27,372 nucleotides of DNA, from IMG/VR virus record IMGVR_UViG_3300050821_006588, positions 1 to 27,372 of that record; one strand, 5' to 3'. Positions 2,759-18,035 of this stretch are shown one piece after another. This DNA is from a virus. Position numbers and translations under genes: made by a program. Position 1 is the stretch's first letter; each line of letters starts with the position of its first letter. The notes beneath the pieces are model-generated. The model was not told the origin of the DNA and searched no databases. It was given only the letters and a program-made list of their open reading frames with translations.

Positions 2759-3759
2759 GACACGGTCGGAGTGCTCGTGCTCAGCGCGGTGAGCAGCGAC
2801 TGGACCGCCGAGAGGACCGCAGGGTTGAGCGTGCCGGCCGGAATCGCCTGGATCGCCGTGAGCAGCGCGGCCTTGTCCTTGTCGGTCTCGCCATTGATCG
2901 CAGCCACCACACCGTCCAGCTTGGCGTCGAGCGCGCTGACCGAGGCGACGAGGCCCTGCGGCGCGTTGATTACGCCATCGGTGAGGGCCGTGGCTACGTG
3001 AGTCATCAACCACGTCAGGTCGCCCCCGGGTGCGCCGGACACTCCCGGCACCGGAAGGTAGCCGTAGGCGTGCATCGAGGCGACGCGGAGCTGGATATCG
3101 GCCACCATGGCCTGGATGTTGTTTTCCACGGGATCGGTCATTGCCCTGTTACCTCCGAGTAGTTGCTTGGCATCGTTCAGGTCAACAGCGCCAGACACCC
3201 CGGCGACGGTGCCGGCATTCCAGTACTGGACCACATCCTGATTTGGCATCGCGGGGCCGAAGTTCGACCAGGCGTTGTCGCGGTTGTTCGCGTAGTAGCG
3301 CGCGCCTATGAACCGCACGTTGCCATCGACCGCGATCGTCGAGGCCATGCCAGCGTTCTCATGGCCGAGGTAGACGTAGACAACGGCGGTCGGGTTGCCG
3401 AGCTGGGCGCGCGTCTCGGCGACGAGAGAGACCACCTGCGCGGCCGTCATCGGCGGTCCCGAGTAGCCGGTCAACCCGGTCCACTCGCAGTCGAGCACGG
3501 GCCCCCACTCCCACGCGATCGTGTTCCAGTTGCACAGGCCGAGGAGCGAGGAGATCTGGGTGGCGAAGTTCTCCACGCTCGGCGGTCGCACGAAAATGTA
3601 GGGCGCGCGCAACTTGCCGGCTAGATGGGTGTAGTGAGTGCCCCACATGTCATCGACCGCGCCGTTGGACCGGCGCACACGCAGGTAGGCGAAGTCCACC
3701 GCGACCGGCGGCGTGCTGGACTGGACCGAGCTCAGGTCGACACCGAACAGGTCCGTCAC
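2755..3759 (-). CDS. endolysin, GH25 (lysozyme)-like muramidase
   Basis: Start GTG 3759 was chosen because GGGAGG lies seven bases upstream and the protein then opens MTDLFGVDLSSVQ, the usual GH25 opening (GxDvSxxQ). The 334-residue product has D8, and D90 with E92 in VLDCEW, matching the DxE catalytic pair of GH25 enzymes. VVYVYLG, FIGARYY and VVQYWNAG correspond to later strands of the barrel. The predicted reaction is cleavage of the MurNAc-GlcNAc bond of peptidoglycan at lysis. From about residue 240 there is a helical C-terminal part (ALDAKLDGVVAAINGETDKDK) of the kind that binds cell wall or mediates oligomerisation. No signal peptide was seen, so export would depend on the holin. It is unusual in lying on the strand opposite the holin. 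Confidence 0.8.
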   Translation of the reverse strand: MTDLFGVDLSSVQSSTPPVAVDFAYLRVRRSNGAVDDMWGTHYTHLAGKLRAPYIFVRPPSVENFATQISSLLGLCNWNTIAWEWGPVLDCEWTGLTGYSGPPMTAAQVVSLVAETRAQLGNPTAVVYVYLGHENAGMASTIAVDGNVRFIGARYYANNRDNAWSNFGPAMPNQDVVQYWNAGTVAGVSGAVDLNDAKQLLGGNRAMTDPVENNIQAMVADIQLRVASMHAYGYLPVPGVSGAPGGDLTWLMTHVATALTDGVINAPQGLVASVSALDAKLDGVVAAINGETDKDKAALLTAIQAIPAGTLNPAVLSAVQSLLTALSTSTPTVS

Positions 3760-4700: not shown

Positions 4701-5428
4701 AGCTGCCTCAATTTCTCGATGTCGCGGTGGAGTTGCTCGGCCTGGTAGGTCTCGTACGCCGCGCCGTCGTGCCGGACCATCTCGGCCGAGTTGCTGTGCT
4801 GGTAGCTCGCGTCCATCGTGCCGTGGCCGGCAGCCGGGTGCAGGTGCCGCAGCATGATGTCCTCGCGGTAGACCAGCGACCCCAGCGCGGTGCCCCAGTC
4901 GCGCCACACCACGTCGATGTAGAGGTGCCGGAACTCGGGAGGAGCCAGGTAGCCGAGCTCGGCCGGGATGCGCGCGTCCATCACCACGGCGGTGGGGATG
5001 TCCGGCCGCAGGCCGTCGTTCGGGTAGGTGATGGTCGGCCGGTCGCCGAGCTCGACCTCTTCGAGCAGCCGCTCATCCCACCCGACCGTCTCGGGCAGCA
5101 CGTCGTCACCCATGAAGCCGACTGTGGTGAATGGGTAGCTGGCCAGCTTCGCCCACCTGTACATCTGGTTCAGCGGCTCGACGCACCCGGCGCGGTCGGC
5201 AGGGAGCTCGGCGAAGACCATCGAGTCGAAGCGGTGAACCCCTTCGCGGGACCATCGGTTCTCAGCGATGACGAACAGATCCAGGTACTCGTCGAGGTCT
5301 GGATCGTCCTCACCCACCCCGATGACGATGGTGGTGTCCTTCCGGGTGACGGTCTCGGCGCACGCTTCCAGCAACCTGCGCACGTTCGCCGGTCGGCCTC
5401 TGGTCGGGACCAGCATGGTGAGGCTCAT
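4688..5428 (-). CDS. GT-A fold glycosyltransferase (family 2-like)
   Basis: A 246-residue protein whose ATG 5428 overlaps the lipoprotein stop (ATGA). It begins MSLTMLVPTRGRPANVRRLLEAC, the usual N-terminal strand and loop of GT2-type enzymes that grips the nucleotide. FMGDDVLPETVGWDE (about residues 104-118) carries the acidic metal/donor motif with DD. Then come a VVMDAR strand and a His/Trp-rich acceptor region (FRHLYIDVVWRDWG). No membrane helix was seen. It would transfer a sugar or polyol from an activated donor, and the downstream nucleotidyltransferase could make that donor. The acceptor is unknown. Confidence in the fold is high and in the specific role low. Confidence 0.78.
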   Translation of the reverse strand: MSLTMLVPTRGRPANVRRLLEACAETVTRKDTTIVIGVGEDDPDLDEYLDLFVIAENRWSREGVHRFDSMVFAELPADRAGCVEPLNQMYRWAKLASYPFTTVGFMGDDVLPETVGWDERLLEEVELGDRPTITYPNDGLRPDIPTAVVMDARIPAELGYLAPPEFRHLYIDVVWRDWGTALGSLVYREDIMLRHLHPAAGHGTMDASYQHSNSAEMVRHDGAAYETYQAEQLHRDIEKLRQLCES

Positions 5429-5769
5429 GAGCAGAATCCCGTCCGTTGCAGCGCTTCGATGATCATCGGTTTGGTCTCGTCCCAGTAGGGGTCAACGGTG
5501 GTCCAGTTCGTGGCGCCGTAACCGGTCGCGTAACTGGCGCAGATGCGTTGGTGGTTGTCGTCGGCCGTCTGCGCCCAGCTCGCCGGCATCGTCGCCCCCT
5601 CGACGTGCAACTGCTCGTAGAGAGCCACGCCGGGGTCGGTCTGCGCGGTGAGCGCGTCGTGTGGCATCGGGCGCCCGAGCTCGGTTCGGTGCGAGCAACT
5701 CGACAGCAGGGCGAACAGGCCAACGAGCATGACCCCGGCGAGTGCAATCTTGATCCAGTTCTTCGTCAT
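5425..5769 (-). CDS. small secreted lipoprotein
   Basis: Start ATG 5769 was chosen because AGGA lies eight bases upstream; ATG 5778 is possible. The 114-residue product starts MTKNWIKIALAGVMLVGLFA and continues LLSSC, a classic lipoprotein signal peptide with lipobox. After processing the Cys would be lipidated and about 90 residues exposed outside the membrane. Two further Cys (QRICASY and the penultimate residue) may form a disulphide. Small phage lipoproteins of this layout often block superinfection or DNA entry; that role is inferred here. It heads the sub-cluster with the glycosyltransferase and nucleotidyltransferase, suggesting a cell-surface alteration set. Confidence 0.7.
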   Translation of the reverse strand: MTKNWIKIALAGVMLVGLFALLSSCSHRTELGRPMPHDALTAQTDPGVALYEQLHVEGATMPASWAQTADDNHQRICASYATGYGATNWTTVDPYWDETKPMIIEALQRTGFCS

Positions 5770-5807: not shown

Positions 5808-6059
5808 CTATATGTCCGTTTTGTGTTGCCTCTTTTTGGCCTGGTCGTACCGCTGCTGCGCGCCCTGCCGAGTGGGGCCCAGCGCCGCGAAGCTGTGCCC
5901 GGCGACGTCATGGCCCTCGATCAGCTCCAGATCGATCAGCGTGCCGATCAGGCTGTTGAGAGCGCGGAGTTCGCGGAGGGTGCGGACAGCCGAGCTGCCG
6001 GCGCGGATTCGGCTCTCCGTCACCCGCGCCGACAACTCATCCCATTGCTGACCATTCAT
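5808..6059 (-). CDS. conserved-looking helical protein of unknown function
   Basis: An 83-residue protein starting at ATG 6059, which overlaps the preceding stop as ATGA. It is predicted to be mostly helical, with charged heptad-like stretches (RTLRELRALNSLIGTLIDLELI) and a basic C-terminus (QQRYDQAKKRQHKTDI). There is no Cys, signal peptide or membrane segment. I do not recognise the family. The gene ends 39 bases before the lipoprotein start; the inverted repeat at 5781-5798 lies in that gap. Confidence 0.55.
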   Translation of the reverse strand: MNGQQWDELSARVTESRIRAGSSAVRTLRELRALNSLIGTLIDLELIEGHDVAGHSFAALGPTRQGAQQRYDQAKKRQHKTDI

Positions 6060-6418
6060 TCGTCGTCTGCTTCGGCCTGCGTCGGCTCACTGGAGAACGT
6101 GCCATTGGCCAGTCGATGGAAAGCGAGTCGGCCCTGGGCGTGGCGCAGATCGGTGTTGACGCGACGGAGGTCAGTAGTCAGTCGCTCGTTTTCCTTTGCC
6201 AGATTGTATTTTATTTCCAGCGACTCGACGTTATTTTCCGCCATCTGACGATACTTTGTGGCCCATTCAAACGAAGTGAATCCGTTGTGTACATTCGTTT
6301 CGAGAGTGGTGACCTTTTCCCGAAGCACCGCATTCTGAGCCTTCAGGTCATTGATTGTTTCCATCATAATATCGATCCCGTGCTGAACCGTTCGGTAACC
6401 GTCATCCGAGAAGGTCAT
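6056..6418 (-). CDS. coiled-coil protein of unknown function
   Basis: A 120-residue protein starting at ATG 6418 (ATGA overlap with the whiB stop). Residues 15-95 look like a long coiled coil (METINDLKAQNAVLREKVTTL, then ENNVESLEIKYNLAKENERL). The tail is acidic (TQAEADDE). The DNA of this gene is clearly lower in GC than its neighbours, with ATTT and TTAT codon runs around 6190-6380. That hints at recent acquisition from another source. Function is unknown; a scaffold or DNA-binding partner is conceivable. Confidence 0.6.
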   Translation of the reverse strand: MTFSDDGYRTVQHGIDIMMETINDLKAQNAVLREKVTTLETNVHNGFTSFEWATKYRQMAENNVESLEIKYNLAKENERLTTDLRRVNTDLRHAQGRLAFHRLANGTFSSEPTQAEADDE

Positions 6419-6768
6419 GATGCTCGCTTTCGTCCTGATCGTGTGTGCAGTCGGGTTGTGCCGTCGAGCTGTCGAGCCAACGCCATCCGGGCGCGGGCCA
6501 TATCGAGTGTGATGTACTGGTTTCCGTAGACACCCACCTGTGGCACGTCGGTATACGTCGACCGGCTGTCCCGGCATAGCGCGACCACCGGGCAGCTGGA
6601 GCAGTAGGCGAGTGCGTCCCTGATGCGCGGGTGAGCGTCGGCACCGTCGAGGTTGTGCTCGCCACCATCCCGCTGGTCCAGAGGCAGGAAGAGGTCGGGG
6701 TCGGCCGAGGAGCACGCCGCATCGCGCTCCCAGTGATGGTCGGTGTTCGGGAGGTAGCTGATGGTCAT
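6415..6768 (-). CDS. WhiB-family iron-sulphur transcription regulator
   Basis: A 117-residue protein starting at ATG 6768 (ATGA overlap with the methyltransferase stop, tgaggt upstream). It has the four WhiB cysteines: C19 in DAACSSADPDLF, then C56-x2-C59-x5-C65 (YCSSCPVVALC), which ligate a 4Fe-4S cluster. GVYGNQY follows, replacing the usual GVWGG turn, and a basic C-terminus (RSGRKR) stands in for the DNA-binding tail. WhiB-like proteins bind the main sigma factor and alter promoter choice. In phages some act on host whiB genes and superinfection. The family strongly points to an actinobacterial host. The longer frame back to 7227 is antisense to methyltransferase sequence and is not used. 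Confidence 0.85.
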   Translation of the reverse strand: MTISYLPNTDHHWERDAACSSADPDLFLPLDQRDGGEHNLDGADAHPRIRDALAYCSSCPVVALCRDSRSTYTDVPQVGVYGNQYITLDMARARMALARQLDGTTRLHTRSGRKRAS

Positions 6769-6785
6769 GCCGACCTCAGTTCCCG
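6765..6785 (-). repeat. 21-bp direct repeat, copy 1 (stop, RBS and start junction)
   Basis: Identical in all 21 bases to 7418-7438. It encodes the last codons and TGA of the methyltransferase (RELRSA), contains tgaggt as ribosome-binding site and ends in the ATG of whiB. With copy 2 it frames the methyltransferase gene exactly. Confidence 0.85.
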
Positions 6786-7421
6786 AAATAGGTGACCACC
6801 GATGTATTCGGTATAGGCAGGAGGAATGGCCTGTGACAATTCTTTGCTGTTCATCCAGTCGATACCCATAGCCACGGAGGCTATTTCTTGAGTAACGTCG
6901 CCTGTGACTGACGTGTGCATTCCAAGATCCCAATCGTACCGACGCTTTTTCGTGCTGGTAGGCGCGGAATGCCCGACCGGATGGGGTGGTTGAGGCACCG
7001 TGAAACCGGAACAGCGGAACTTCCGGTGCCGAACGGTGCGCAGGCCGAAGTGCCGGTCGGCACACAGGGTCAGGTTGCTCGGGTACGCGGCCGGGAACCG
7101 GGCGGCCATGACGTTCTCCACCACGTACGGCTTGCCGGACTGCTCGCACAGCTCGATGAAGCGTTCCAACTGCCACCCGGTACCTGTCTTGCCCGCGCGG
7201 CTCGTGAGCGGCGTGTGATCCCGGCATTCTGGTGACCCGTGAATCGCGTCGGCCAGTGGTGCCAGGTGCTCGAACAGTTCGAACGCGTCACCCTGGAAGA
7301 ATTCGAACGGGTATCGGGGGTGTGGTTCGATGTCGATGCCGATCACCCGGAAGCCGGCACGGTGATAGCCCATGGCCGCGCCACCCGCGTTGCTGAAGAA
7401 ATCAAGCAGGGTGGGCATCAT
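6765..7421 (-). CDS. DNA cytosine C5-methyltransferase, compact form
   Basis: A 218-residue protein starting at ATG 7421 (ATGA overlap; ATG 7418 is also possible). Motif I is LLDFFSNAGGAAMGYHRAGF (SAM binding, residues 5-24) and IGIDIEP binds the cofactor ribose. Motif IV is SPEC with candidate catalytic C66, where the usual sequence is PPCQ. Motif VI is ENV (102-104), and RHRKF near residue 135 corresponds to the QxRxR motif VIII. There is very little target-recognition region, and the protein is much shorter than bacterial Dcm enzymes, as is common in actinophages. Role: methylation of phage DNA, probably against host restriction. The gene is flanked by 21-bp direct repeats. The change around the catalytic Cys could alter or weaken activity. 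Confidence 0.8.
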   Translation of the reverse strand: MMPTLLDFFSNAGGAAMGYHRAGFRVIGIDIEPHPRYPFEFFQGDAFELFEHLAPLADAIHGSPECRDHTPLTSRAGKTGTGWQLERFIELCEQSGKPYVVENVMAARFPAAYPSNLTLCADRHFGLRTVRHRKFRCSGFTVPQPPHPVGHSAPTSTKKRRYDWDLGMHTSVTGDVTQEIASVAMGIDWMNSKELSQAIPPAYTEYIGGHLFRELRSA

Positions 7422-7438
7422 GCCGACCTCAGTTCCCG
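7418..7438 (-). repeat. 21-bp direct repeat, copy 2
   Basis: Exact copy of 6765-6785, 653 bases apart. It covers the last codons and stop of the zinc-motif gene (again ending RELRSA), the ribosome-binding site and the ATG of the methyltransferase. Confidence 0.85.
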
Positions 7439-7765
7439 CCACGGCCGAGGCCGCTCGATCTGGCCGTCCCGGCGAGCCCGGTTGAGCACGGCCTGGAGGG
7501 TCACGGCTGGCATGTTCAGGCGCCGAGCGGCTTCCGGGCACGTCACGCACCGGCCGCCGACGTGCTCCCACTCTTCGAGGACCTCCTCACGCGGCCGGTA
7601 GCGACGCTCGTGGTCGATGAGGGTGCCGGCGTACCGGGCGGCGTCATAGCACTTCCGGCACAGCCCGCGCCCGGCATGAGCGCGGGTTCCGGTCGCTTCG
7701 CTGATCGGCAGGGCGTTCGGCCGCAGGAGGTGCCCACAGACGCGGCAGTCGCGCGGGGTGTTCAC
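7418..7765 (-). CDS. zinc-ribbon protein with C-terminal helix-turn-helix-like region
   Basis: A 115-residue protein starting at GTG 7765 (GTGA overlap). CRVCGHLL (from residue 7) and GLCRKCYDAAR (about 34-44) supply four Cys for one zinc site. Later CPEAARRLNMPAVTLQAVLNRARRDGQI reads like a helix-turn-helix with a recognition helix. It also has CVTC before that. These features suggest a small DNA-binding protein, perhaps a regulator, with no enzymatic motif. Its C-terminal sequence RELRSA is identical to that of the downstream methyltransferase because both lie in the 21-bp repeat. Confidence 0.65.
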   Translation of the reverse strand: MNTPRDCRVCGHLLRPNALPISEATGTRAHAGRGLCRKCYDAARYAGTLIDHERRYRPREEVLEEWEHVGGRCVTCPEAARRLNMPAVTLQAVLNRARRDGQIERPRPWRELRSA

Positions 7766-7997: not shown

Positions 7998-8504
7998 TTA
8001 CTCGTCGTCCTCGGAAGGGTCAACACTTATTGACAGCGGATCTGGCCAACCCAGATCGTGCACGGCGGCGTAGAGGGCATGCCGAGCGGCGTCGGCAGCG
8101 TGGGGAAGGCCCCGGAACTTGCTCGCGTGGAACGCTGCGCCGAAGCGCTTCGGAGTTGCCCATGGCTTTACCTGAGCGGCCGAACGCAGCACGAACGGGT
8201 TGGGCAGCGTCTTCACCGCGCCGATCAGGTCCCGGGCATGCTGGCCACCGGCACGCTGCCCTCTCGTCGACGCTCGGCCGAGTACGAAATCCTCGCACGC
8301 GACGAAGAGCTTCCCGTCCTCCTGCACGCTGGTGAGGCGCCTCACCAGCGCGACTAGGTCAATCGGGTAGAGCTCCGACTTCGAGAGCTGCCACGGCGTC
8401 GCACAGTAGGCCACGGGGGGCTTCCAGCTGTAGACGCCGCGCCGCGGGCGAACCAGGCACAGCCCGGTCGTGCCGCCGGGGTCGATCCCGAGGATGGCGG
8501 TCAT
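7998..8504 (-). CDS. RuvC-like Holliday junction resolvase
   Basis: A 168-residue protein with the RNase H-like fold of RuvC: GIDPGGTTGLCLV with D8 at the N-terminus, ACEDFV with E71 in the middle, and HAADAARHAL with D138 near the end. These supply the acidic metal-binding residues. RuvC-type enzymes cut four-way junctions symmetrically; in phages they resolve branched DNA before packaging. The GC-rich basic region GRASTRGQRAGGQ after E71 may contact DNA. The ATG 8504 overlaps the stop of a seven-codon frame that follows a strong ribosome-binding site (8501-8524), so it may depend on translational coupling. It sits directly after the SNF2 helicase, consistent with recombination-dependent replication. 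Confidence 0.78.
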   Translation of the reverse strand: MTAILGIDPGGTTGLCLVRPRRGVYSWKPPVAYCATPWQLSKSELYPIDLVALVRRLTSVQEDGKLFVACEDFVLGRASTRGQRAGGQHARDLIGAVKTLPNPFVLRSAAQVKPWATPKRFGAAFHASKFRGLPHAADAARHALYAAVHDLGWPDPLSISVDPSEDDE

Positions 8505-13270: not shown

Positions 13271-13366
13271 ATGCTACAGCAATCGCTCATCTTCCGCCCA
13301 ATACACCGCCGGATCGCTACCGGTGGTGTTGTTCTGCGCGCAGACTATCGAGGAGTAACCCTGTGA
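13271..13366 (+). CDS. possible 31-codon leader gene before the replisome gene
   Basis: ATG 13271 is preceded by TGGAGG with a nine-base gap, and the frame ends in a GTGA overlap with the start of the large replication gene. The product (MLQQSLIFRPIHRRIATGGV, then VLRADYRGVTL) has no recognised motif. The good ribosome-binding site and the overlap suggest a coupling leader peptide. The downstream gene also has its own AGGAG, so coupling may not be required. Confidence 0.45.
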   Translation: MLQQSLIFRPIHRRIATGGVVLRADYRGVTL

Positions 13367-16300
13367 CTACAGAGCACGATCTCGACGTTGCCCGGCGCCT
13401 GATCGATTTCGGCGTCCCGGTATTCGTCGCCAAGGCCGATCCGACCAGCAAGCTCGGATTCAAGCTGCCGTCGAAATGGCAGACCACAACCCCGGTCAAG
13501 GCTAATCTGCTCGCCTGGCGGGAGGGTGATGCACTCTGCGCGGTGATGGGTCACGGCCTCGATCTGATCGACATCGACCCGCGCAACCTCGGCGACAAGC
13601 CACTACTCTGGCCGGTTACGCCACCGCCCGTTGTCGCCAGTGCTACGACGCCGAGTGGTGGTATCCACCTGTTCGTCCTCAGCCACGGCGTCCTCAGCCA
13701 CGGCGTCCTCAGCCACGGCGTCCTCAGCCACGGCGTCCTCAGCCACGGCGTCCGCAGCCGAGACGGCATCCTGCCGGGCGTCGACTTCAAGGGTGGTGAC
13801 CACGGGGAGGGCCACGGCTTCGCCTTCATCGCGCCGACCGTGAAGACCTCCAAGACGACGGGCGAGCTCGCGGGCTACCGGTGGACGTCGGTGGACTTCG
13901 ACGAGCTCAACGAGGTTTCCAAGATCAAAAATCTCGAGGTTGGCCGACCGTTCGCTGACTGGGTGCGGTCGCTCCACGGTGTTTCCAAGACCGCACCGGA
14001 AACCGACGACACGGCGAGCTACATGGACGCCGGCAGTCGCATCTTCCACACCCCCGAGACCGCCTGGTCAGCGATCCACCGGGAGCTGGCCACGGTGTGC
14101 GGATGGACGCCGGACGCCGGGGTCAACTTCCGCACCACCCTCCTGCGTGCGGCCTTCGTCCTCGGTGGCTACGTGGCCTCGGCGCTGGAGGGGTTCACAA
14201 CAGACCAGGCTACGGTGCTCCTCCTCGACGCGGTCAGGGGCGTCTACCTCAACCCCGACGACGACGACCGACTGTGGATCGAGCAGGGCCTCACCGATGG
14301 GCAGCTCCGGCCGTTCAACGTTGCCGATCGGCCGCCTACCCCGGTTGCCGGCGTCGTCTCGCGTGACCCATGGCCCGGGGAGCGGAGGGAGTTCCGGCCA
14401 CCGGTTGGGGTTGTCTCCCACCAGGCCGTCGCCGAGTGGGTGTTGTGCTACCAGTGGCCACGGTGGCGTCACCTGCACGAGACGACGACCTGGATCGTGA
14501 ACGAAAAAGAACGGTGGGGTGACCGCCCGGGCAAGCGCCTCGGCGACGCGATCCTGTCCGACACGGTCCGTTTCATGCCGGTCGGCGTCAAGCCGGACGA
14601 TCCGAAGGACCAATCCAGCTGGACCCCGGATAATTGGGCATATCACTGGTTTCAGACATTCTCCAGCTCACCCAAGTCTGCTCCGTTCGCCCGTAAGATC
14701 GACGCGCTGATCGTGGCCGGATACGACCCGAGCACCGCGTTCGACCGGGATATGGACAGCGACGGCTCCGTCTTGTGGGCAGGTGGTGTGCCGTGGAGTC
14801 TTACCGAGCCGGGCGAACGGGTCGACACCGAACTGCTCACCCCGCACCGCTGGTCGGCCGCTACCAACCCGGACTGGAGTGTGGCGACGCCGGCATGGAA
14901 TGCGTTCCTCGCTGCGGTCTGGCCGGACGCCGAGGTGCGCAACTGGGCAATTCGCGTATTGTCGATCGGCGCTACGGCCGAAGCGGATGCCGCGCTGCCG
15001 GTGCTCTACGGGCCTGCCGGCCGGGGCAAGACATCAGTCATCGCGCTCATCATGCGAGCTTTGGGCGATTACGCCCATATCGCCGATGCTCGGCTGATCT
15101 CCAAGGCCAACGCTCACCAGTCGATCAAGTACGCGCTCAAAGGCCGTCGACTCTCGTTCATCGACGAGGGCCCCCGAAACAACGAGACCGTCCGGGAGGC
15201 GTTGAAAGAGCTGACCGGTGGGGGCAACCTGACCGGCAACGCCATGGGCTCCAATCCGGTCACCTTCGCGCCCACCCACACACTGGTGATGACCAGCAAC
15301 GATGAGCCGCACATCACCGACGATGCGATCCGGCGACGCATCCGCGCGATTCCCTGCGAAGGCGACTCAGAAGACGTCCGCTTGGCCCGTAGGCGCGTCG
15401 AACTGGCGTGGAAGGTCGAGGCGCCCGGGGTGCTGGCTCAGCTCATGACCGAGGCGGCTGCGTGGCTGGCAGACCGCGATTCCGCCCTCAGCTCGGCAGC
15501 GCCGATGGAGCTGCAAGTGCGGACCGCCGAGATGGCCGAGGGGCAGGACCCGGTCAAGGCGTGGGTTGTCGAGTGCACCTCGGAGAACCAGACCGGTACC
15601 AAGGCCAGCGCGCTGCTCACCGCGTTCAACGAGTGGGGTCGAGGACAGGCGATCAAGCCGTTCAACTCGACGGCTTTCGGCAACTCGTTGAAGCGGCTTG
15701 GCGTCGTCAAAGAGCACCGCAAAGACGGTACTTACCACCTGATAGTGCTCAATGTTGGTGGAGGATTTACGTACTTTGGTCCGCCGAGGGATGTGGTGAC
15801 GAGTAAACCCGTCACGGAGGCACAGTCGTCACCTGTACCCTTCACCCCCGAAAACACGAGGTCAACCCCGGTTTTCTCTGATGCTGGTGATGGGTTGACG
15901 AGTTCAACACGAAGTACACACACAAAAAACCAAACAACACACACACACTCATATAACAGCAATAGTGACGAGGGTCGTCACCCGTCACCTTCGGCCGATA
16001 AAACCGGGGTTGACCTGCGAAAACAACCGGTGACGGCTACTGGTGACGACCCCATCACCCATCACCCCGACCCAAAAATCGCCGAAAAGCCGCAATTGAG
16101 CCGAACCGCCATGAAGGCGCGGGTCAAGGCTCAGGCGAAGGCCGAGGCAGCCTCGGCAGCTGCCGGTGCGATGATCGAGTTGCCGGCACTCGTCCGGCGC
16201 GGGCAAGCACCCGTCTCGATCTCCTCGGCCGCGGCCGTAGACGCGGTTCGCTCGGCCGTTCGGCGTGACGGGGCGCTGACGGTCGACATCGAGCACAACG

Positions 16301-17988
16301 GCTACCCGCTCGGCCACTCGCTGTTCGTCGTGAAGACGGTCCAGCTCGGCGACGCGCTGGAGGCCGTCGTCTTCGATCCTGAAGCCGACGCGTCGAACAT
16401 CCGCATGCTGATCGAGCAGGCCCCCGTACTCAAGGCGTTCAACGCCATGGCCGATCTGAGCTCGCTCGCCTACGCCGGTCTCGGCGACCATGACGCCATG
16501 TGGGCGAAAATGGAGGATGCGGCCATTCCGGCCAAATTGTCCGATCCTGCTGGCACGAGCAACTCCGATGGCCTCAAGGACACCGCAGCGAAGCTCCTCG
16601 GCAGCGCGGCCGTCGCGCCGGACGCCGAAGTCGCCAAGGACGCGCTCTTCACGACGGCCGGATGGCTAAAATCGCCCAAGTGGGCCGAAACGCCCATCGA
16701 GCGCAACGGATGGGCGCAAGTCGACCCGCGCTGCTCGACGATGGTGGTCTACGCCGCCTCTGACGTCCTCGACACGGCGCCGTTGGCCGCGTTGCTACCG
16801 GCGCACAAACCGGCGCTTCTGGGGCGCGAGCGAGACGTACAGCGGGCCACAGCCCGGCTCTCGTTCACTGGACTCAAGCTCGACCACGAGAGGGTTCTGG
16901 ACAAACACCACGAATTCACCACGAATCGGGCAAAAGCACTGGCTGACTGCGCGGCCCTTGGCGTTCCCGACCCCACCGACGCCAAGGTGGCGCGCAGGCT
17001 GGCCGAGCTCGGTGCGCCCGTTCCGCGCACGGCTGCCGGCAACCCGTCGGTGCGCAAGGGCGTTATCGAGCCGTGGGCAGCTCGGCAGGATGAGATCGGC
17101 GAGGTCGTGCGCGCGGTGATCGACAAGCGGCACTGGAGCACCGGGCTGAGCTTGATCTTGAATCCGTGGAAGTCTCTCGTCGAGCAGGGTGACGGCCGCG
17201 TGCGCAGCACGATCTACACCCTCGGCGCGGACACCGGCCGCATGTCGAGCGTCCGGCAGAACATGCAACAGGTGTCCAAAGAGGGTGGTTTGCGGGAATG
17301 CATTCAGGCTGATGACGGAAAGCGGCTCATTTCGGCGGACTTCAGCGGCGTCGAAATCCGTGTCATGGCGGCATTGTCCGGTGATCCAGCGCTCAAGGCG
17401 ATCATCGAATACGACGATGCCCATCCCGGTCAGAAGATGGACCTGCACTGGATCATCGCCCGGATGGTCTACGGACCGAACGCGACGAAGGCGAATCGCT
17501 ACAACGTCAAGTCCGACGTGTTCGGCCGCTTCTACGGCGGCGGCGCCGAAACGCTGGCAGAGGAGTCCGGTGAGACCGTCGAGACCACTCAGCGCGTGCT
17601 CGACTTCCTTGATCAGCTTGCACCGACGATGACGGCCTTCGCCAAGCACATCAAGGCGTCCGTCAAGAATGGCTACCGCGAATATCCGACCTACAGCGGG
17701 CGCACGATCATCTTCGATCCGCGCTTCCCTCACAAGACACCGAATTTCGTCGTGCAGGGAACGGCACGCGAGCTCGCGGTGGACGCGATTCTGCGGTGGG
17801 AAGACACGCCGTATGCCGGTGATGTGGTGTTGCCGGTGCACGACGAGATCGTGGCTCAGGTGGACGAGGACAACGCCGAGGGCGCACAACAGGAGCTGTT
17901 GCGGTGCATGACAACCGACCTCAACGGCGTCCACATCAAGGCTGAGCCGGGTGATGGTCCGAGTGATCACTGGTGGTCGGCCGTGTGA
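13363..17988 (+). CDS. fused Prim-Pol primase, SF3 helicase, DEDDy exonuclease and family A DNA polymerase
   Basis: A single 1541-residue protein starting at GTG 13363 with AGGAG seven bases upstream. Residues 1-190 are a Prim-Pol primase: DID with D70/D72, SGGIH with H102 and DFKGG with K143. About 520-690 is a superfamily 3 helicase: GPAGRGKTS (550-558), FIDE (D601/E602), MTSN (N646) and IRRRIR (657-661), followed by a winged-helix-like region. Residues 806-935 are a Ser/Thr/Pro-rich linker. About 965-1140 is a proofreading exonuclease: DIE (D975/E977), FNAMAD (N1027/D1031) and YAASD (Y1130/D1134). About 1145-1541 is a PolA-type polymerase: TGRMSS, motif A DFSGVEIR (D1326/E1331), motif B R1379-K1383-F1387-Y1391 and motif C HDE (1493-1495). 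All catalytic residues are present and no frameshift was seen, so one polypeptide could prime, unwind, copy and proofread. Confidence 0.92.
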   Translation: MTTEHDLDVARRLIDFGVPVFVAKADPTSKLGFKLPSKWQTTTPVKANLLAWREGDALCAVMGHGLDLIDIDPRNLGDKPLLWPVTPPPVVASATTPSGGIHLFVLSHGVLSHGVLSHGVLSHGVLSHGVRSRDGILPGVDFKGGDHGEGHGFAFIAPTVKTSKTTGELAGYRWTSVDFDELNEVSKIKNLEVGRPFADWVRSLHGVSKTAPETDDTASYMDAGSRIFHTPETAWSAIHRELATVCGWTPDAGVNFRTTLLRAAFVLGGYVASALEGFTTDQATVLLLDAVRGVYLNPDDDDRLWIEQGLTDGQLRPFNVADRPPTPVAGVVSRDPWPGERREFRPPVGVVSHQAVAEWVLCYQWPRWRHLHETTTWIVNEKERWGDRPGKRLGDAILSDTVRFMPVGVKPDDPKDQSSWTPDNWAYHWFQTFSSSPKSAPFARKIDALIVAGYDPSTAFDRDMDSDGSVLWAGGVPWSLTEPGERVDTELLTPHRWSAATNPDWSVATPAWNAFLAAVWPDAEVRNWAIRVLSIGATAEADAALPVLYGPAGRGKTSVIALIMRALGDYAHIADARLISKANAHQSIKYALKGRRLSFIDEGPRNNETVREALKELTGGGNLTGNAMGSNPVTFAPTHTLVMTSNDEPHITDDAIRRRIRAIPCEGDSEDVRLARRRVELAWKVEAPGVLAQLMTEAAAWLADRDSALSSAAPMELQVRTAEMAEGQDPVKAWVVECTSENQTGTKASALLTAFNEWGRGQAIKPFNSTAFGNSLKRLGVVKEHRKDGTYHLIVLNVGGGFTYFGPPRDVVTSKPVTEAQSSPVPFTPENTRSTPVFSDAGDGLTSSTRSTHTKNQTTHTHSYNSNSDEGRHPSPSADKTGVDLRKQPVTATGDDPITHHPDPKIAEKPQLSRTAMKARVKAQAKAEAASAAAGAMIELPALVRRGQAPVSISSAAAVDAVRSAVRRDGALTVDIEHNGYPLGHSLFVVKTVQLGDALEAVVFDPEADASNIRMLIEQAPVLKAFNAMADLSSLAYAGLGDHDAMWAKMEDAAIPAKLSDPAGTSNSDGLKDTAAKLLGSAAVAPDAEVAKDALFTTAGWLKSPKWAETPIERNGWAQVDPRCSTMVVYAASDVLDTAPLAALLPAHKPALLGRERDVQRATARLSFTGLKLDHERVLDKHHEFTTNRAKALADCAALGVPDPTDAKVARRLAELGAPVPRTAAGNPSVRKGVIEPWAARQDEIGEVVRAVIDKRHWSTGLSLILNPWKSLVEQGDGRVRSTIYTLGADTGRMSSVRQNMQQVSKEGGLRECIQADDGKRLISADFSGVEIRVMAALSGDPALKAIIEYDDAHPGQKMDLHWIIARMVYGPNATKANRYNVKSDVFGRFYGGGAETLAEESGETVETTQRVLDFLDQLAPTMTAFAKHIKASVKNGYREYPTYSGRTIIFDPRFPHKTPNFVVQGTARELAVDAILRWEDTPYAGDVVLPVHDEIVAQVDEDNAEGAQQELLRCMTTDLNGVHIKAEPGDGPSDHWWSAV
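13675..13749 (+). repeat. five tandem 15-bp units in the primase domain
   Basis: Five exact copies of gtcctcagccacggc encode VLSHG five times (residues 105-129). They lie between the primase His motif (H102) and the DFKGG motif (K143). A sixth, degraded unit follows. Because the unit is 15 bp, slippage would change length without breaking the frame. Confidence 0.95.
15796..16048. other. putative replication origin: GTGACG iterons around a CA/AT-rich tract
   Basis: Exact GTGACG or its complement occurs eight times: 15796, 15810, 15827, 15965, 15976, 15983, 16030 and 16043. The extended consensus is GGTGACGRSY. The copies fall in all three codon positions of the polymerase gene, so protein coding does not explain them. 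Copies at 15965 and 15976 form a hairpin with 7-bp arms. GGTGATGGG variants occur at 15885 and as the complement near 16052-16066. Between the two clusters lies a CA/AT-rich tract (about 15901-15963) suited to duplex opening. Lambda has its origin similarly inside its initiator gene. Confidence 0.6.
15859..16016. repeat. 17-bp inverted repeat flanking the CA/AT-rich tract
   Basis: Bases 15859-15875 (aggtcaaccccggtttt) are the exact reverse complement of 16000-16016, 124 bases apart. The arms enclose the CA/AT-rich tract and three of the iterons. As single-stranded DNA they could close a large stem-loop. Confidence 0.85.
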
Positions 17989-17993
17989 TCGAG

Positions 17994-18035
17994 GTGACCC
18001 TCGTTGTGTCCAATTTTGGACACAACGAGGGTCAC
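17994..18035. terminator. perfect 42-bp palindrome after the polymerase gene
   Basis: Bases 17994-18013 are the exact reverse complement of 18016-18035, with only tt between them. It begins six bases after the polymerase stop. The RNA hairpin would be very stable, as for a terminator, but no U tract follows. As DNA the site could bind a dimeric protein or extrude as a cruciform. Terminator is the conservative call. Confidence 0.5.

Follow-up and report, generated by a model that had tools for sequence, protein, structure and literature searches.

A methyltransferase gene between two copies of a gene-junction repeat in a phage genome, and similar repeats in other phages

A C5-cytosine DNA methyltransferase gene of a bacterial virus lies between two exact copies of a 21-bp direct repeat, one at either end of this single gene and each at a gene junction. 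We think it probable that the gene entered at the junction between a zinc-ribbon-like gene and whiB and duplicated that junction on entry. Judged by sequence comparison, several unrelated phages have similar scars on both sides of genes that they appear to have newly gained. Phage genomes are mosaic, their joints often coincide with gene boundaries, and how these joints arise is disputed, with homology of the boundary sequences on one side and illegitimate recombination plus selection on the other. Repeats that hold a ribosome-binding site (RBS), a stop and a start, and that are single in relatives where the site is unoccupied, make this mechanism testable. The DNA analyzed is an IMG/VR virus record of 27,372 bp, here called the window, and all window coordinates refer to its full length (Table 1).

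Table 1. Coordinates of the repeat-framed locus and its syntenic anchors in the window
Feature	Position	Strand	Remarks
WhiB-like regulator gene, 117 aa, downstream	6415..6768	-	PF02467, E 1.2e-7
Repeat copy 2	6765..6785	-	Methyltransferase RELRSA codons and stop, RBS, whiB start (ATGA overlap); exact match
C5-cytosine DNA methyltransferase gene (framed gene), 218 aa	6765..7421	-	phrog_363, E 6.8e-34
DNA between the repeat copies, 632 bp	6786..7417	-	Segment that would have been gained under the preferred model
Repeat copy 1	7418..7438	-	Zinc-ribbon RELRSA codons and stop, RBS, methyltransferase start (ATGA overlap); exact match
Zinc-ribbon-like protein gene, 115 aa, upstream	7418..7765	-	phrog_20467, E 3.3e-6; AbiEi_4 20.3 bits, below the cut-off of 25
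RES gene (phrog_1981), syntenic anchor upstream of the variable block	7998..8504	-	
SNF2-type helicase, syntenic anchor and query for the phage family	8521..10287	-	

The repeat, TCATGCCGACCTCAGTTCCCG, is found on the plus strand at 6765-6785 and 7418-7438, 653 bp apart from start to start. On the coding (minus) strand it becomes CGGGAACTGAGGTCGGCATGA, which translates as R E L R S A and a stop, with GAGG 5 nt ahead of an ATG that overlaps this stop as ATGA. The zinc-ribbon protein and the methyltransferase both end in RELRSA, and WhiB starts inside copy 2. A sequence-only reading of the window had described the methyltransferase gene as framed by repeats with stop, RBS and start, and had traced the common C-terminus of the two upstream proteins to them; both points are borne out, with two exact copies that account for the RELRSA tail. 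Its expectation that a deletion would join zinc-ribbon gene and whiB cleanly and in register also holds in silico, as removal of the methyltransferase gene and one repeat keeps both outer frames, the zinc-ribbon protein ending in RELRSA-stop and WhiB starting with MTISYL. No third site exists in the window at up to 3 mismatches, and coincidence as the source of the repeat could be ruled out, with none of 100 dinucleotide shuffles of the window matching it. The 14-bp core has 9 matches in the window, the two copies included, against a mean of 4.9 expected. This is near chance, so that the repeat, with its two copies, does not serve this phage as a general RBS at many starts, which the sequence-only reading had named as a finding that would tell against it.

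Within the locus, WhiB carries its domain clearly (PF02467 at 32.6 bits, above the cut-off of 23.6), and the zinc-ribbon protein has weak profile matches only. The framed gene classifies as a C5-cytosine methyltransferase by its phrog_363 match together with SPEC, motif IV with its cysteine, and VVENV, with the ENV motif. It matches M.HaeIII at a phmmer E of 0.006, and no Pfam family was found for it at E 0.001. SPEC stands in place of SPPC at motif IV (6765-7421, minus strand) and is unique among the tallied sequences, 61 rows with the window counted twice, of which 57 have SPPC, one SPVC and one no such motif. No restriction gene was recognized beside the methyltransferase and its duplication. 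The GC3 of the methyltransferase gene is 0.721, versus 0.853 for the zinc-ribbon gene, 0.874 for the helicase, 0.811 for RES and 0.763 for whiB; this lower value counts in favor of a gain of the gene. We propose that the zinc-ribbon gene was the original owner of the RELRSA tail and whiB that of the start codon and RBS in the repeat. Elsewhere in the window, a 1,541-aa ORF (13363-17988, plus strand) combines DUF5906 with a C-terminal DNA polymerase domain of family A and may be a primase-polymerase fusion; it contains a 15-bp tandem repeat (13659-13763) and is closely followed by a perfect inverted repeat (20 bp, loop of 2 nt; 17994-18035), probably a terminator.

The phage family of the window was found by searching with its helicase, which gave relatives at 44 to 64% identity (more distant ones were left out). 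Helicase, RES and WhiB form a syntenic core in these relatives, and the gene content between helicase and WhiB is variable. A methyltransferase is located there in 3 of 30 distinct contigs (L073, L074 and L097; the 30 correspond to 34 loci, some truncated), and in L078, L080 and L083 RES is followed by WhiB without room for another sizeable gene. The nearest relative, L073 (helicase 62% identical), has a syntenic methyltransferase 46% identical to that of the window, in the order two small zinc genes, methyltransferase, 72-aa gene and whiB. The 21-bp repeat is absent at this gene. Since L073 keeps the methyltransferase without the repeat, the latter is not part of a conserved cassette, and a conserved mobile cassette carrying its own repeats is ruled out; the repeat is a feature of the lineage of the window and not of the methyltransferase gene. 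A relative with the gene and without the repeats had been named in the sequence-only reading as a finding against it, and L073 supplies this in part. Given L073, the locus may have held a methyltransferase-type gene earlier. Just upstream of its methyltransferase, L073 has a direct duplication of ~200 bp (5301-5489 and 5918-6116, 75% identical) that frames another gene, and both copies end in LVTDA-stop. The DNA of L074 and L075 is alike through an ATGA and then differs, continuing into a C5-methyltransferase in L074 and an 80-aa gene in L075; a divergence right after the ATGA indicates that overlapping stop/starts are places of exchange in this family. At 10250-10500 of L075, where L074 has its C5-methyltransferase, there is a cut-off ORF with VVTSPPYFGLRTYG that has no Pfam match and, by eye, may resemble the start of an N4/N6 amino-methyltransferase. 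Another member of the family, L076, contains a 52-aa gene (2890-3048) lying between copies of a repeat that is at least 21 bp long and covers stop, start and first codons.

The direct junction of zinc-ribbon gene and whiB, which the sequence-only reading had suggested looking for in related genomes, did not turn up in protein searches of viral_contigs or by tblastn in phages. The WhiB and zinc-ribbon proteins of the window retrieved no relatives from viral_contigs; tblastn in phages gave none for WhiB and, for the zinc-ribbon protein, three Arthrobacter phages matching its N-terminal half only. A 20-mer of the repeat had no match in genome_contigs. The one match of an 18-mer in viral_contigs belongs to an unrelated phage, whose ORFs next to the site show no methyltransferase. 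There (L003, 4893-4910), 18 bases are identical at an ELRSA-stop/ATGA junction, in single copy, in a phage that is apparently Mu-like, and by our own estimate chance alone could roughly account for such a match, given how large the collection is. Neither viral_contigs, genome_contigs and phages nor the helicase relatives yielded a close relative of the window, whether carrying the gene or lacking it.

Repeats of this type recur at other methyltransferases. For related C5-methyltransferase genes, we looked for exact stretches of at least 12 bp common to the start and the stop region; of 72 records, 67 had a complete gene with its flanks (5 incomplete ones were dropped) and 61 remained after dropping 6 near-identical ones. 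Such a repeat frames 7 of the 61 non-redundant genes, with 21 bp in the window and in L012, 27 bp in L018, 14 bp in L031 and L066, and 13 bp in L015 and L048. Cross-locus pairs reached 12 bp in 3 of 3660 cases, and other genes of the same loci in 18 of 1907, a set that does not count the methyltransferase of the window and whose start-calling rule differs from that of the 61-gene census. Without the window, 6 of 60 methyltransferase genes reach 12 bp (Fisher p 5e-5, for a comparison of 6/60 with 18/1907 that mixes the two start-calling rules). The seven repeat-framed methyltransferases are only 36 to 54% identical to each other and hence look like separate events. The repeats of L018 and L012 hold RBS, start and stop as in the window, and those of L066 and L048 have a looser register; a junction-repeat scan that demands the upstream stop inside the repeat misses L018 and L012. 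The repeat of L012 was found solely in its own contig. Among 14 methyltransferase regions from named phages, one reached 12 bp in the standard search interval (Landor, stoperator-like), and an extended interval added PherrisBueller.

In three cases other than the window, a relative lacking the framed gene has a single copy of the repeat. The contigs of L018 and L019 (L152 and L153 in this comparison) have the methyltransferase between two 27-bp copies, and L151, with flanks 94 to 99% identical to theirs, has one. This locus is like the window in that a methyltransferase is framed by a repeat with tail codons, stop, RBS and start, and unlike it in the 27-bp length and in that the repeat of L151, where the methyltransferase is missing, belongs to another gene. 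The single copy of L151 encodes the tail LASLEDPS-stop of this different gene, of 96 aa, after an HNH fragment. In L153 it is the methyltransferase that ends in LASLEDPS-stop; upstream, the other gene is reduced to this same tail, and copy 2 is not followed by a good gene on the plus strand. As the upstream gene is mostly gone from L153, the pair does not represent a clean insertion, and as a simple repeat-repeat deletion in L153 would not yield L151, the latter is not its excision product. The second case belongs to the family of the window and to the same region. In L092 an extra 92-aa ORF, without a match in Pfam or PHROGs and by eye presumably GIY-YIG-like, lies between two exact 28-bp copies of a sequence that is single in L084, where it consists of the helicase tail GSTLRKAA-stop and the start of RES. 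In the third, gp82 of PherrisBueller, a C5-methyltransferase, is located between 22-bp copies (20/22 identical) holding the upstream stop and an RBS, and Euphoria, with one copy, lacks a gene at this place.

A sample of insertions not picked for repeats came from eight Fromanvirus right arms, of phages chosen for carrying a related methyltransferase gene. An exact flanking repeat of at least 12 bp, single in the phage without the insert, was present in 10 of 33 distinct clean insertion differences; 3 of the 33 had 7 to 11 bp and 20 had under 7. In the family of the window the corresponding numbers were one, one and five of seven clean insertions, so most clean insertions stay below 12 bp (23/33 in Fromanvirus, 6/7 in the family of the window). 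By these counts, junction duplication is common but not general. By eye, 6 of the 10 Fromanvirus repeats contain a stoperator-like motif of 13 bp, and recombination may act at this motif itself; 4 contain an RBS-like stretch (Kanely, Euphoria with 141 bp, PherrisBueller and Doom).

The model that we prefer starts from an ancestor with the order zinc-ribbon gene, repeat, whiB, in which one copy of the 21 bp would have provided the C-terminal codons and stop of the former and the RBS and ATG of the latter. The methyltransferase gene would enter by two independent crossovers with short or no homology, the left crossover falling on the start codon of whiB and the right one upstream of the tail codons, and the stretch between them would become duplicated. 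Copy 1 would then supply RBS and start to the new gene; copy 2 would supply its stop, and with it the RELRSA tail, and would leave whiB its own site, so that both the new gene and whiB keep an RBS. An insert that does not duplicate the junction would deprive one of the two genes of its initiation site, except where the newcomer has its own, and selection would therefore favor the duplicating ones. Put differently, where an overlapping stop-RBS-start serves two genes, a newcomer lacking a site would need a start and would have to leave the old one working; both needs require that the left crossover falls beyond the site and the right one ahead of it, and the stretch between is thus duplicated. 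The two-crossover model accounts, with no dedicated enzyme, for the register, the shared tails, the unequal lengths and the absence of a common motif, and predicts that duplicated stretches contain an initiation site from which their lengths follow. Such repeats would also reveal recent gains of genes from one genome alone, where no relative can serve for comparison. For the window, we infer the direction (gain), the two-crossover route and the selection, and loss of the gene by recombination between the repeats would also be possible. The gain/loss cassette of the sequence-only reading is supported in part: the recurrence at unrelated methyltransferases and the filled and unoccupied pairs favor the gain, and the repeat-free gene of L073 and the zinc-ribbon/whiB junction that did not turn up in the searches above tell against the cassette.

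The same arrangement could come from homologous exchange at a shared boundary, if a donor already had the 21 bp beside its methyltransferase and ordinary recombination acted between the copies. This has been offered for similar cases (in the relevant passages of PMC3029335 and PMC4351075), and the stoperator-like motif often held by the Fromanvirus repeats is present at many sites. However, the 20-mer had no match in genome_contigs, the sole 18-mer match in viral_contigs has no methyltransferase beside it, and neither sequence nor length is constant among the repeats at other methyltransferases; we regard this reading as unlikely. We give a still smaller chance to insertion by a dedicated mobile element or endonuclease with a target-site duplication. 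Methyltransferase and nuclease-like genes are indeed among the inserts, an HNH fragment adjoins the L151/L153 site, and for restriction-modification genes PMC3031569 reports insertion with target duplications that are long and vary in length, but the repeats vary from 13 to 28 bp, share no motif and sit at initiation sites, and the framed segment of the window contains neither an integrase nor a transposase.

Very improbable, in our view, is that the 21 bp are the remnant of a larger tandem duplication whose middle was later replaced. The ~200-bp duplication of L073, framing another gene at the same locus, speaks for it, but in the window identity is lost sharply at both edges of the 21 bp and no decayed similarity is found beyond them. 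Finally, the repeat stands at two starts and holds an RBS, as would a functional signal, of start-associated type or bound by a protein, that selection maintains at several starts; yet it has two copies only, its core is near chance elsewhere and it is absent from L073, and we hardly believe in this at all. Duplication of the zinc-ribbon/whiB junction on entry of the methyltransferase gene is the reading that we retain.

Extended beyond the window, we would only tentatively, and with more doubt than conviction, suggest that duplication of an initiation junction is a main route by which single genes, methyltransferases above all, come into packed phage operons, and a reversible one. A newcomer would survive when its entry duplicates a stop-RBS-start module serving two genes, and the same duplication would make the gain cleanly reversible. 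In the literature searched, mostly without subscription papers, we found neither this general rule stated nor a frequency count, an excess at methyltransferases or the link to initiation sites.

Of the systems already described, the start-associated sequences of Cluster K phages are, like the repeat of the window, short, RBS-bearing and located at starts. In the passages of PMC3203893 that present them they are 13 bp long, have 11 to 19 copies per genome, are conserved across related phages and are not duplication scars, so the comparison drawn in the sequence-only reading fails for a repeat that has two copies and that the nearest relative lacks. The insertion by which restriction-modification genes come to be flanked by target duplications of considerable and variable length (Nobusato et al. 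2000, as cited in PMC3031569) is similar in both the methyltransferase genes and the duplication, but it was described, as far as that summary goes, in bacterial genomes, and no restriction gene was recognized in the window. Closer cases come from mycobacteriophages. In the part of PMC3029335 on LRRHood (Subcluster C1), 29-bp direct repeats surround 1.35 kb with genes 43 to 46, and relatives have one copy; as in the window, DNA has been added with flanking repeats, one of them at the 3' end of a gene, but it comprises four genes, an immunity repressor included. According to the section of PMC4351075 on Cluster O, Corndog gene 14 lies between 17-bp direct repeats that are single in four relatives, again one gene between direct repeats at a gene junction, although an Xis-like one and with relatives known. 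The account of Subcluster I1 in PMC3029335 gives the last 18 residues of Island3 gp68 as those of gp67, and Brujita, the relative lacking the gene, has one copy of the sequence; here too the inserted gene repeats the C-terminal codons of the upstream gene, but the repeat has ~50-60 bp and the relative is nearly identical, against 21 bp and no close relative found for the window. In these passages the authors leave gain or loss open for Island3 and Corndog and favor gain for LRRHood. By its direct repeats at both ends of a single gene, the window probably joins this known kind, a gene insertion flanked by a junction repeat, of the type of Island3 gp68 and Corndog 14.
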